Origin: an uncultured Balneolaceae bacterium
GTDB taxonomy: Bacteria; Bacteroidota; Rhodothermia; Balneolales; Balneolaceae
NCBI GenBank assembly: GCA_937125285.1
Contig: CAKZLH010000256.1
Location: 1-64,000 of the forward strand
DNA length: 64,000 nucleotides
Direction of reading: 5' to 3'
Below, piece by piece: positions 11,682-16,032 of this stretch. Each line of letters opens with the position of its first letter. Within the stretch, counting starts at the first letter, position 1. Under the pieces are notes generated by a model. The model saw only the letters and a program-made list of their open reading frames with translations, did not search any database and had not been told where the DNA came from. Position numbers and translations under genes: made by a program.

Positions 11682-12665
11682 TTACGACATTAAGATTCCT
11701 AAATAAGCGGTGTGAATAATATCTGATTCAGAACACCCTCGTGAGAGATCGAGCATGGGTTTGTTTAGACCTTGAAGTATAGGGCCCATAGCCGATGCAT
11801 TGGCTAATCGTTGAACGAGTTTGTACCCAATATTTCCAGACTCTAGGTTAGGAAAAATAAATACATTTGCGTCACCAGCTACAGAACTATCTGGGGCCTT
11901 TCGCTTTGCAACTGATTGGTCCCATGCCGCATCAAATTGCAACTCTCCATCAATGGCATATCGATTATATTTCTTTTTGTATATGGTTAATGCGCTTCTA
12001 ATTTTCTCTACTCGTTCATGCTCTGCACTACCTCTTGTAGAGAAAGAAAGCAGTGCTATTTTAGGCACAATTCCTGTCAAAGATTCAAAATTTTTGGCCG
12101 AGTCGAATGCAATATTGGCTAGTTGGGCGTCGGTTGGCTCAGGTATTACGGCACAATCTGCAAAACTTAGAAGTTTATCGTCATTTAGCTCCATGATAAA
12201 ACTACTTGATATAGTTTCGGACTCTGGATGTAAACCAATAGAATGGATAGCCGCTCTGATTACATCTCCAGTGGTAGCGACCGAACCAGCAACGCAAGTG
12301 TCCACCAAATTTGTTGCCAAATAACAAGCTCCAAAGTATAACGGATCTTTAAGGGCCTTTTCGACCATTTCCAAGGTCCAACCTTTAGTTTTCCTCTTAC
12401 TAAATAAATGCTCAGCTAGCGCGGGTAGTTTAGAATCGGTTTCGGGATCTAACCAGTGAACCCTAGGATGTTGAAAAGTGGGCTGAGCTTTGTCATTTAA
12501 CACTAGAAAAACATCGGCTATTTCATTTTGAGCAAGAAACTTGGCAGCTTTAATAATTCGTTCGTCTGAGGACCTTGGAAAAAGTACTTTTCCTTGTTTT
12601 TGGAAGGCTTTATGCTCTAGTAGTTCAGTAAACTTCATACTTTGAGAGTCGAAAATAGTTTGCAA
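11682..12665 (-). CDS. pta: Phosphate acetyltransferase (short, catalytic domain only)
   Basis: FPRSSDERIIKAAKFLA, CVAGSVATTGDVIRAAI, LNKPMLDLSRGCS; typical PTA_PTB domain. Confidence 0.92.
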   Translation of the reverse strand: MQTIFDSQSMKFTELLEHKAFQKQGKVLFPRSSDERIIKAAKFLAQNEIADVFLVLNDKAQPTFQHPRVHWLDPETDSKLPALAEHLFSKRKTKGWTLEMVEKALKDPLYFGACYLATNLVDTCVAGSVATTGDVIRAAIHSIGLHPESETISSSFIMELNDDKLLSFADCAVIPEPTDAQLANIAFDSAKNFESLTGIVPKIALLSFSTRGSAEHERVEKIRSALTIYKKKYNRYAIDGELQFDAAWDQSVAKRKAPDSSVAGDANVFIFPNLESGNIGYKLVQRLANASAMGPILQGLNKPMLDLSRGCSESDIIHTAYLGILMS

Positions 12666-14372
12666 TTACCAATTCGTATCATGATTACCAAAAAATAGTA
12701 TGTTTTGAGGTTCATTATGTAATCTTCTTGAAGTATAATCCACATTACGTTGTAGATGATTTATGATCATATTAGTAGACTTAGAACCCTTTTTTAATGC
12801 ATCTGCCAAATAATAGCTAAAGATACTATGATACTTTTGCGCTAAACCTTGTTTTGTGTAAAGCTGGGATTGGCTACGTCCATCTGAAGAAAATATCATA
12901 CTAAAGCTTAAGTTTGAATTTACTAGTTGATCATTTATCTGGAGAATTGCTTGATAAAATTGCTCAGGTGTGCCGGAAGCATAATCGTAATTAACATCTG
13001 CAATTAAAATCAGACTACTATAGCCCAATGTTACTACCTGATCTACAATGGATTCAAAATCAAAATAGTGCTCACTATCACCTAATAAATATGTAAGGTT
13101 ATTATTCTTACCTATTGAAGCATAACCATTTAAATATAGTATAATTTGTTTCTCTTCACTTGAAATTTTTTCTAGAAGTGACCAACTTTCAAAGTATTGA
13201 TCAGGATTACTTTGATTGATAACTCTAGCTAGGTTGGTATAACCTAAGCCCAATGTATTGATAAAATATTCTTCTAATAATTTTCCATCTCTCTCGGCAT
13301 AACGCTTATTTTGTAGTCCACCACCATAAAACTCATTTGCAATAATAATTGCATTACTTGGCACCGTTCTGTTCTCTAATGGTGTAGGGATATCCCTCTC
13401 AACATCTACATTTCCAAAAGGGATATTAGGCAATGTCACAATGGAAAGTTCATCAATATAATTAGTTGGCCGCCAAATCGGGCGAACATCACTTTTTGAT
13501 AGATACGTCTCGGTTATACCATATTGTACCTTATACCAATCTTCTAATTCACCTAAATACAATAATTCACTGCCTCTCGCCAAATCAGTGAGTATTGAAT
13601 TGTTGGAATTATTGGGTTGTTGACGCAATGGACTAATATTTGATTCTACAACTACAAACCGTTCAAATATGTCGGTAATAGTTAATGGATAGATATAGGT
13701 ACTGTCATTAAAGTCTAATTCAATTCGAATATTTTGCTGCTCATCAAATGTGAAATCATTTGGGTTTAGTTCTTCCAAGAGATTGATTTGGTATGAATTC
13801 CCATCAAAATTGACCTCATTTCGAATAGCAACCGCTTCATTGCGACTATAAATGGTATAAGTCGGATTAATGAGAGGTCTACGAGAAGCTAATAGGGTAT
13901 CTGTGAGCTCAATTGTGCCTGTTCTTTTTAATAAACGCTCTTCTCCAGTAGCTAATGAAGTACCCATTTCTCTATCCCCAATCATTCCTAAAGCCAAGCT
14001 TAAACCAGCTGTCCCCAAAAACATGTACTGCTCGAAGCTACCATTAGAAAATTTTTGTGAAGTTAAGTAAGATAAATACGCACCAGAAGCTCCAAGGACT
14101 AAACCTAAAAAAGAAGGTCTATATCGCTGCAGGTACCTTCCCATTTTAATCTTTTGAGCGTATTCGTAGGTATTGGTATCCCATACCTGAAATCCGACAA
14201 TTGGTTTTTCTGGGGTAGGTGTTTCAGAAACTTTCAAGAATTGATTATTGGCTACCAACTCGAATTCTGTTCGGTCAATGGCCGTATTGTCTTCTATAAT
14301 CCATTTTGAACTACTGCATCCTAAGGATATCAAAAGTACTAAAATTGGTATGTAACGGGGATTTATGCCCAT
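12666..14372 (-). CDS. Lipoprotein with bacterial SH3-like region and degenerate caspase-like (peptidase C14) domain
   Basis: Lipobox LISLGC; SH3b-like VVVESNISPLRQQPNN...LGELEDWYKVQYG; caspase-like AIIIANEFYGGGLQNKRYAERDGKLLEEYFINTLGLG with the expected His/Cys motifs replaced. Confidence 0.6.
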   Translation of the reverse strand: MGINPRYIPILVLLISLGCSSSKWIIEDNTAIDRTEFELVANNQFLKVSETPTPEKPIVGFQVWDTNTYEYAQKIKMGRYLQRYRPSFLGLVLGASGAYLSYLTSQKFSNGSFEQYMFLGTAGLSLALGMIGDREMGTSLATGEERLLKRTGTIELTDTLLASRRPLINPTYTIYSRNEAVAIRNEVNFDGNSYQINLLEELNPNDFTFDEQQNIRIELDFNDSTYIYPLTITDIFERFVVVESNISPLRQQPNNSNNSILTDLARGSELLYLGELEDWYKVQYGITETYLSKSDVRPIWRPTNYIDELSIVTLPNIPFGNVDVERDIPTPLENRTVPSNAIIIANEFYGGGLQNKRYAERDGKLLEEYFINTLGLGYTNLARVINQSNPDQYFESWSLLEKISSEEKQIILYLNGYASIGKNNNLTYLLGDSEHYFDFESIVDQVVTLGYSSLILIADVNYDYASGTPEQFYQAILQINDQLVNSNLSFSMIFSSDGRSQSQLYTKQGLAQKYHSIFSYYLADALKKGSKSTNMIINHLQRNVDYTSRRLHNEPQNILFFGNHDTNW

Positions 14373-15580
14373 GGAGTCTGCTTCGAAGCAATGGCTATTT
14401 TAGCAGCATCAATGGCAATCACTAGCTCCTCATTGGTTGGAACTACGTATATCTCAACTCTAGAATTTTCAGTGTGAATAGGGCCGAATCCGACGATTTC
14501 ATCATTTTTTTTCTCGTCAATTTCTAACCCAAGGTATTCTAGATCTTGGATGATCTTTTTTCTAATGATGGGTGAATTCTCGCCAATACCTCCAGTGAAC
14601 AATAATGCATCAGCTCCATTCAGTGCTGCTACATAGGATCCAATGTATTTCTTTGCTCTATAACAAAACACATCAACAGCCTCGTTACACCTTCTATCTC
14701 CTTGCTCTGCCTCTTCTAATAAATCCCTCATATCTCCAGCATAACCACTTAAACCAAGTAATCCACTGTGCTTATTTAACAAGGCATGAACATTGGCAAG
14801 TGACAATTCCTCTTTTTCAATCAGAAAAAATAAAATAGACGGGTCAATATCACCACTCCGAGTTCCCATGACTAAACCCTCTAATGGAGTAAATCCCATA
14901 GAGGTATCATAGGATTTCCCGTCTTTAATCGCATTTATAGACCCCCCATTACCCAAATGACAACTGATTATCTTCGATCCATTTTTTTTCCGGTTTAATC
15001 GATTAAAGTACTCCCGACTTACGAAATAATGGGAAGTACCATGAAATCCATACCTCCTAATTTTGTATCTCCGGTAAAGCCGATTGGGTATCGCATACAA
15101 ATAAGCATGCTGAGGTATGGAGTGGTGAAATGCAGTATCAAATACCGCTACATGTGGAATATTGGGTAATAACTTTTTGGCTGCACGTATACCGTGTAAA
15201 TTGGGCGGATTATGTAATGGTGCAATATCAAAGGCTTGCTCTATAGCAGACTCTACATCCTCATCAATCAAAACCGAATCTTTAAACAATTCACCGCCAT
15301 GCACCACCCTATGCCCAACAGCTTCAATTTCATCTATGGAATGAAGATTGGGGTTATCTGCTTGCATAAGTAATTCCATAATCTTACCTAATGCAGCAGA
15401 GTGATTTTCAATAGCTATGGATTTTTTTAATGGTTTTTCGTCTAAAAACTCATGCCGGATAATCGAGGTTACCGCCCCTATTCTTTCTACCAAACCCTTA
15501 CAAAGAGTGGTTCTATTTTTAGTATCAATAAGCTGATATTTGATAGAGGAACTACCGCAATTAATCACTAAAATTTTCAT
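14363..15580 (-). CDS. ackA: Acetate kinase
   Basis: VINCGSSSIKYQL, AVGHRVVHGG, FDTAFHHSIP, GTRSGDIDPS. Confidence 0.97.
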   Translation of the reverse strand: MKILVINCGSSSIKYQLIDTKNRTTLCKGLVERIGAVTSIIRHEFLDEKPLKKSIAIENHSAALGKIMELLMQADNPNLHSIDEIEAVGHRVVHGGELFKDSVLIDEDVESAIEQAFDIAPLHNPPNLHGIRAAKKLLPNIPHVAVFDTAFHHSIPQHAYLYAIPNRLYRRYKIRRYGFHGTSHYFVSREYFNRLNRKKNGSKIISCHLGNGGSINAIKDGKSYDTSMGFTPLEGLVMGTRSGDIDPSILFFLIEKEELSLANVHALLNKHSGLLGLSGYAGDMRDLLEEAEQGDRRCNEAVDVFCYRAKKYIGSYVAALNGADALLFTGGIGENSPIIRKKIIQDLEYLGLEIDEKKNDEIVGFGPIHTENSRVEIYVVPTNEELVIAIDAAKIAIASKQTPWA

Positions 15581-15582
15581 TT

Positions 15583-16032
15583 TTACGCTTTAATTATCCA
15601 TTCGGGTAAGATGCTATTCGAAATCAACAGGTCATGAGCCATCTTCATTAGTCTTACTTGCTCTGGCCATTTGATAAAATCTTCAACAGAATCTATCGTT
15701 ATCCATTCATAGTTTGTGTGTTCATTATTGAGTTGCAGAGAAACTGTTGACTCAATTTCTGCGGCAAATGCAGGAATAAGATGTATAGTATTGGACTCAT
15801 GTTCAAAAAATGTATTTATCGACGGTATAGTCCAAAATGATACGGGAGTGCTTCCGGTTTCTTCCTTTATTTCTCGTAAAGCGGCCTGGGTGTAACTTTC
15901 GTTTTCTTTAAGCTTACCTCCCACCATTCGCCATTGGCCTGAGTAAATTTTATTCTTCGCTCGCTTGAGAACTAAAAATTCTATTGTATGGTCTTTCTTG
16001 CGGTAAAGATAAGCATCTATTAAACGTTTCAT
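15583..16032 (-). CDS. NUDIX hydrolase
   Basis: NUDIX box GGKLKENESYTQAALREIKEETG. Confidence 0.93.
   Translation of the reverse strand: MKRLIDAYLYRKKDHTIEFLVLKRAKNKIYSGQWRMVGGKLKENESYTQAALREIKEETGSTPVSFWTIPSINTFFEHESNTIHLIPAFAAEIESTVSLQLNNEHTNYEWITIDSVEDFIKWPEQVRLMKMAHDLLISNSILPEWIIKA

Follow-up and report, generated by a model that had tools for sequence, protein, structure and literature searches.

A predicted caspase-fold lipoprotein without the catalytic dyad is conserved across a bacterial order, with or without the acetate genes beside it

Introduction

Why would a lipoprotein that resembles a caspase be encoded between the two genes of the acetate pathway? In the window (the whole 64,000-nucleotide stretch of DNA that we analyzed, from an uncultured Balneolaceae bacterium), the genes ackA, X, and pta follow each other in that order on the minus strand, where X is our name for the lipoprotein gene. 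An earlier note on this DNA had described X as a degenerate caspase and had tied it to acetyl-phosphate metabolism. Our searches of open-access papers found no description of the X family. Here we ask what kind of protein X is, whether the gene is maintained, and whether it belongs with its neighbors.

Results

The gene and its junctions

The open reading frame of X begins with an ATG at position 14372, runs to position 12666 on the minus strand, and encodes 568 amino acids with no internal stop codons (Table 1). The frame is intact, and every motif that the earlier note had quoted from it is present in the translation. As that note had also reported, X overlaps ackA: the overlap (14363 to 14372) is exactly 10 bp, with the sequence ATGGGCATAA. 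The other junction is different. X had been said to abut pta with no spacer, but this rests on a TTG start codon for pta at position 12665. The pta frame can be extended to that TTG, and it also has an in-frame ATG at position 12638. From the ATG, the protein begins with MKFTELLEHKA, and pta from a congener begins with MNFTELLRVKA. Because of this match, the ATG is the likelier start, so the spacer between X and pta is probably about 27 bp, as judged from the sequence and the congener.

The product of pta in the window (11682 to 12665) is short, at about 318 to 327 amino acids, and consists of the PTA_PTB domain alone, without extra N-terminal domains. The gene at 15583 to 16032 was named for its resemblance to a NUDIX gene at another locus (L050), which is identified by Pfam (E = 1.9e-18).

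Table 1. Features of the X locus, in window coordinates
Feature	Position	Strand	Basis
NUDIX-family gene, conserved in the wider neighborhood	15583..16032	-	Resemblance to the L050 NUDIX gene
ackA, acetate kinase, upstream neighbor of X	14363..15580	-	PF00871, E = 4e-150
Gene X, pseudo-caspase lipoprotein, 568 aa	12666..14372	-	Open reading frame, translation, and model
Signal peptide and lipobox LISLGC, residues 1-19, predicted lipidated Cys19	14316..14372	-	Translation and orthologue alignment
N-terminal domain, residues 19-161, in which long beta strands surround a hydrophobic hairpin of helices	13890..14318	-	Model and profile search
Helical hairpin, residues 88-131	13980..14111	-	AlphaFold model
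Probable SH3b domain, residues about 246-302	13467..13637	-	PF08239, orthologue match, and model strands
Caspase (C14) fold domain, residues 338-568	12669..13361	-	Foldseek; PF00656 in orthologues
Tyr417 at the catalytic His position (SGHG -> NGYA)	13122..13124	-	Joint alignment with intact C14 proteins
Asn461 at the catalytic Cys position (DACFSG -> DVNYDY)	12990..12992	-	Joint alignment with intact C14 proteins
pta, phosphate acetyltransferase, whose start is probably the ATG at 12638	11682..12638	-	PF01515, E = 3.9e-103

A predicted lipoprotein with several domains

X has the sequence features of a bacterial lipoprotein, as had been proposed: a signal peptide, a lipobox (LISLGC, residues 14 to 19), and a cysteine at +1. 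All 100 of the orthologues that we aligned have this cysteine (Cys19), and Trp24, which follows it, is also invariant among them.

We modeled X with AlphaFold, using an alignment of 97 rows. The model has a mean pLDDT of 91.0 and a pTM of 0.56, that is, the domains are confident and their packing relative to each other is uncertain. After the signal peptide, the model places long strands at residues 19 to 86, a helical hairpin at 88 to 131, another strand at 133 to 161, a beta domain that extends to about residue 242, a probable SH3b domain at about 246 to 302, and an alpha/beta domain at 338 to 568. The two hydrophobic segments that had been noted in X match the hairpin; the hydropathy of this region is modest (the best 19-residue mean is 1.0 to 2.0) but it is conserved across the family. 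A profile of the X family, with which we looked for the N-terminal domain in the rest of the phylum, did not find it outside the order: the matches from outside begin only at profile position 312 or later, and those that we inspected were other C14 proteins.

The evidence for an SH3b-like region, which had been placed at about residues 238 to 300, is weak but consistent. The window's protein scores 22.5 bits against PF08239 (SH3_3; E = 1.4e-4), below the cut-off of 27, and an orthologue (L070) passes with 27.5 bits. A search of PDB chains with the single sequence of the window's X found nothing up to E = 10; a search with the X profile gave weak matches, all of them to SH3b structures. Together with the modeled strands, these results put a probable domain at about residues 246 to 302.

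The C-terminal domain resembles caspases but the catalytic dyad is gone

When we compared the model of X to the PDB using Foldseek, all 50 of the matches listed were caspases or the paracaspase MALT1. The best match was caspase-9 (2ar9, E = 2.8e-7, probability 1.00), and MALT1 had E = 3.1e-7. The TM-scores, normalized by target length and for single-domain entries among the matches listed, were about 0.6 to 0.7. The window's protein falls short of the cut-off for PF00656 (Peptidase_C14), with 13.7 bits (E = 0.051) where 21.4 bits are needed. We also ran Pfam on single orthologues of X, and several of these exceed the cut-off, including L035 (31.3 bits), G038 (E = 1.1e-12), G071, G025, and others. 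The Foldseek matches, along with the orthologues that pass the Pfam model, argue against the idea that X lacks a caspase fold and bear out the earlier note's caspase-like region at about residues 340 to 565. We therefore predict, with high confidence, that the C-terminal domain of X has the caspase-hemoglobinase fold. The profile of the X family also matches a C14 paralogue with an intact dyad (E = 3e-34) and intact C14 proteins from elsewhere in the phylum (up to 2e-33). The caspase domain of X shares ancestry with active C14 proteases.

To examine the active site, we aligned the C-terminal domains of 97 X proteins with those of six C14 proteins in which the GHG and DACFSG motifs are intact, drawn from the order and the phylum. 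Active caspases and orthocaspases have a histidine in (S/G)HG and a cysteine in DxCxSG; the window's protein has neither (Table 1), so the loss of the dyad that had been suspected is borne out. Instead, X has what defines a pseudo-orthocaspase: a C14 domain in which the His-Cys dyad is substituted.

The loss of the nucleophile is fixed across the family. None of the 97 proteins has cysteine at the catalytic position: 64 have aspartate, 18 have glutamate, 5 have glutamine, 4 have serine, and 6 have other residues (the rarer ones include F, N, I, H, and M). In fact, 91 of the 97 contain no cysteine at all past the lipobox region. Given the missing nucleophile, X is expected to lack proteolytic activity. 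The histidine position is less uniform, with tyrosine in 51 proteins, phenylalanine in 20, histidine in 15, and other residues, such as serine, in 11. The 15 proteins that keep the histidine form a single clade, which requires just one change on the X tree. This histidine may have been inherited from the ancestral site; if so, the family may record a stage partway through the loss of catalysis.

The replacements raise the possibility that X gained a different chemistry, with the acidic residue and the histidine, tyrosine, or phenylalanine opposite it forming a new hydrolase or metal-binding site. Aspartate or glutamate is present at the cysteine position in 82 of 97 orthologues, and the commonest pair is Tyr-Asp (35 proteins), followed by His-Asp in the histidine-keeping group (15 proteins). 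However, both positions vary, as described above, and the pair in the window's protein is Tyr-Asn. We consider this explanation very unlikely.

X is a maintained gene

A scan of contigs with the single X protein identified one near-identical relative, so we gathered the wider family by searching genome by genome. A relative from the metagenome-assembled genome Bacteroidetes bacterium WB4_4_482 is 96% identical. Across the order, 106 of 129 genomes have homologues of X, and these represent four of its five families. The homologues are nearly always single copy and full length, even as identity drops to about 20%. Seven residues are invariant across 97 sequences: C19, W24, R79, Q82, E325, R549, and Q556.

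Could X be a decaying, pseudogene-like remnant that has no function? The catalytic site has been lost, and in the comparison to the nearest relative, dN/dS is higher in the caspase domain (0.23) than in the N-terminal part (0.05). But the overall value for X in this comparison is 0.13, which is far below 1, and for the neighbors it is 0.02 (ackA) and 0.12 (pta). Within the genus, dN/dS for X is 0.06 to 0.19. Furthermore, the reading frame is open in the roughly 100 loci that we examined, and besides the invariant residues, the tail of the caspase domain (residues 513 to 562) is among the most conserved parts of the protein (mean entropy of 1.52 bits). The low dN/dS implies that X is maintained, and on this basis and the open frames we rejected the pseudogene explanation, which is scarcely credible. 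The X family is order-wide, mostly single copy, vertically inherited, and under purifying selection.

X is often near ackA and pta but does not depend on them

The arrangement in the window is not unique to one genome, because ackA-X-pta or ackA-X-EamA-pta, on a single strand, is conserved in parts of four families (f1, f2, f3, and f5). The additional gene encodes an EamA-family transporter; in most genomes it separates X from pta (for example, L035:3123-3977, minus strand) and overlaps or abuts the stop codon of X, and it is missing from that spot in the window. Of about 100 loci, about 41 have ackA immediately upstream of X, many of them with an overlap of 1 to 10 bp, and pta is just downstream of X or one gene further on. 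Adjacency to ackA requires four changes on the X tree, and ackA-X-(EamA)-pta looks like the ancestral arrangement. Because the operon structure is ancestral, X is probably co-transcribed with its neighbors, and the earlier note's placement of X in an operon stands.

Other large clades have lost ackA or have it at a different place, and the order is NUDIX-W-X-EamA-pta, where W is described below. A wider block can be recognized throughout the order: greA, ugd, a gene similar to UDP-sugar epimerases or decarboxylases, NUDIX, W, X, and then suf genes (greA, the sugar genes, and the suf genes were named by reading the sequence rather than by a family scan).

This gene order suggests that X might be a dedicated part of acetate or acetyl-phosphate metabolism, for instance one that senses or regulates AckA-Pta from the membrane side and is translationally coupled to ackA. 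If so, X should occur only with ackA and pta. We searched for ackA and pta in the same genomes as X and counted the combinations in the 84 near-complete genomes from the order. X and ackA were both present in 61, X alone in 15, ackA alone in 6, and neither in 2; for pta, the corresponding counts were 67, 9, 6, and 2. X is present and both enzymes are absent in eight near-complete genomes (G006, G040, G055, G066, G069, G108, G110, and G112). The X tree places them in three clades, the first with G006 (and G008), the second with G040, G055, G066, and G069, and the third with G108, G110, and G112 and their relatives. Draft genomes can miss genes, but this pattern spans whole clades. Conversely, six near-complete genomes from family f4 contain both ackA and pta but not X.

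Thus, X does not require the pathway and the pathway does not require X, and the tie to acetyl-phosphate metabolism that the earlier note had suggested is not supported. An obligatory role for X in the acetate pathway was rejected by the co-occurrence counts: a place next to ackA and pta, even when the overlap of the genes is conserved, did not mean functional dependence. Also, X stays with W and pta in the large clades where ackA has moved or been lost, and X is predicted to be exported, whereas AckA and Pta are cytoplasmic enzymes. Since the adjacency to ackA looks ancestral and persists within parts of four families out of five, X may have a conditional link with acetate metabolism, but we think it quite unlikely that X is dedicated to this pathway.

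In the third clade that lacks ackA and pta, a gene for acetyl-CoA synthetase lies beside X in divergent orientation, and past that gene is an MFS transporter (the synthetase genes are L128:8675-10657 and L129:8953-10941, both on the minus strand). This would fit with a role in acetate metabolism, but it may be a coincidence, or the locus may have exchanged one acetate-activating route for another.

W is a candidate partner of X

W is a secreted protein of about 415 amino acids that has no Pfam match above the cut-off. Its gene lies upstream of ackA or X in most genomes of the order (L050:5729-7024, minus strand; L032:1460-2683, plus strand; L087:7111-8400, minus strand; and equivalents). The model of W is a beta barrel (pLDDT 83.9), and the matches that Foldseek listed for it belong to BamA, TamA, and the SAM complex (E from 1.9e-10). 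W also has a conserved GGxNLRGY stretch, which we take to be reminiscent of the RGF/Y motif of Omp85. Because W has about 415 residues and its strands begin at residue 26, there is no room for POTRA domains. W is predicted, from the model, to be an Omp85-type outer-membrane barrel without POTRA domains.

X might be an accessory lipoprotein of W that assists it when a substrate is inserted or exported. In most loci, W lies upstream of X, no more than a few kilobases away, and in many of the loci where ackA is not adjacent, W ends 9 to 12 bp before X. The two occur together in 72 of the 84 near-complete genomes. Furthermore, lipoproteins are the usual partners of BamA, which is among the proteins that the modeled barrel resembles. 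However, the genus that the window belongs to has X and lacks W, including in a genome that is 98% complete, and family f4 has W without X. We view W as a candidate partner of X, not an obligatory one, and an accessory role for X in assisting W seems rather unlikely.

Discussion

We propose that X is an envelope-anchored, non-proteolytic lipoprotein whose caspase fold serves in binding or as a scaffold, and that it acts outside of acetate activation (probability of roughly 0.6). This proposal draws directly on the predicted fold, the loss of the dyad, the lipobox, the conservation of the family, the gene order, and the dissociation from ackA and pta. From these we infer the rest, namely the membrane topology, which membrane X is in, binding as the mode of action, and what the ligand might be. 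The signal peptide and the lipobox would fix Cys19, which is predicted to be lipidated, in a membrane. The N-terminal domain, found only in this order, would contribute its short hydrophobic hairpin, and the putative SH3b module and the caspase domain would probably face the periplasm. Because the nucleophile has been lost across the family, the caspase domain would work by binding, as a scaffold, receptor, or adaptor surface, rather than by proteolysis. The location of X near W in most genomes provides an envelope context. A more specific combination, in which the caspase fold was repurposed in the envelope, the (H/Y/F)-(D/E) pair forms a new site for a ligand or metal, and X is the periplasmic partner of W from the same operon, is unlikely, and we offer it as speculation.

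How does X compare to known systems? First, lipoproteins of the SlyB/17-kDa-antigen type presumably share with X a lipid anchor that is followed by a short hydrophobic helical hairpin. However, X has no Pfam match to such a family, and it has long beta strands and large C-terminal domains.

Second, the active C14 proteins of the phylum (L103, L104, and L130 to L134) have a C-terminal domain that is homologous to that of X, including the tail after the motifs. They differ in having intact GHG and DACFSG motifs and other N-terminal regions, whereas X lacks both residues (except for the histidine in 15 of 97). Two of them, from genomes in the same family (G065 and G050), are second caspase lipoproteins of 417 amino acids, with intact SGHG and DACFSG (L103:2518-3768, plus strand; L104:2826-4076, minus strand).

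Third, human FLIP(L) is a pseudo-caspase and, like X, a catalytically dead caspase fold that is kept by selection (PMC7586951). By this precedent, X could be an inactive caspase that binds an active C14 protease of its own cell and thereby controls it, and some genomes of the order do carry an intact C14 lipoprotein (those in L103 and L104). But FLIP(L) has active caspases as paralogues within its own cell, whereas X is predicted to be exported and its genus has no detectable C14 partner: a search for PF00656 found no match in the window's genome or in the nine genomes that represent the genus, and in most of the order's genomes it found none besides X. A FLIP-like role is disfavored by the lack of a detected protease in the genus, and we regard it as highly improbable.

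Finally, pseudo-orthocaspases are bacterial C14 p20 homologues in which the His-Cys dyad is substituted (PMC6426788, PMC3501461); SyOC of Synechocystis is an example (PMC7889975). Like X, they have the C14 fold, the histidine is most often replaced by tyrosine, and they are presumed to be non-proteolytic. The common substitutions named in a survey are Tyr-Ser, Tyr-Ala, Phe-Ser, Gln-Cys, and His-Ala (YS, YA, FS, QC, and HA; PMC6426788). In contrast, the cysteine of X is mostly replaced by an acidic residue, and no acidic replacement is among the pairs named there. X also differs in being a predicted exported lipoprotein with a probable SH3b domain and an N-terminal domain specific to its order. 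Pseudo-orthocaspases were reported to be rare outside of the Alphaproteobacteria and Cyanobacteria and were discussed in connection with photosynthesis, and just 10 of 1,078 Bacteroidetes sequences in the survey were pseudo-variants (PMC6426788); by comparison, the dead form of X is fixed across an order. Overall, X belongs with the pseudo-orthocaspases, and what sets it apart is that it is fixed order-wide, is predicted to be anchored in the envelope, and has an unusual acidic replacement. A dead caspase can thus be the settled, mostly single-copy state across an order of another phylum, which makes the X family a tractable system for studying what the bacterial caspase fold does without catalysis.
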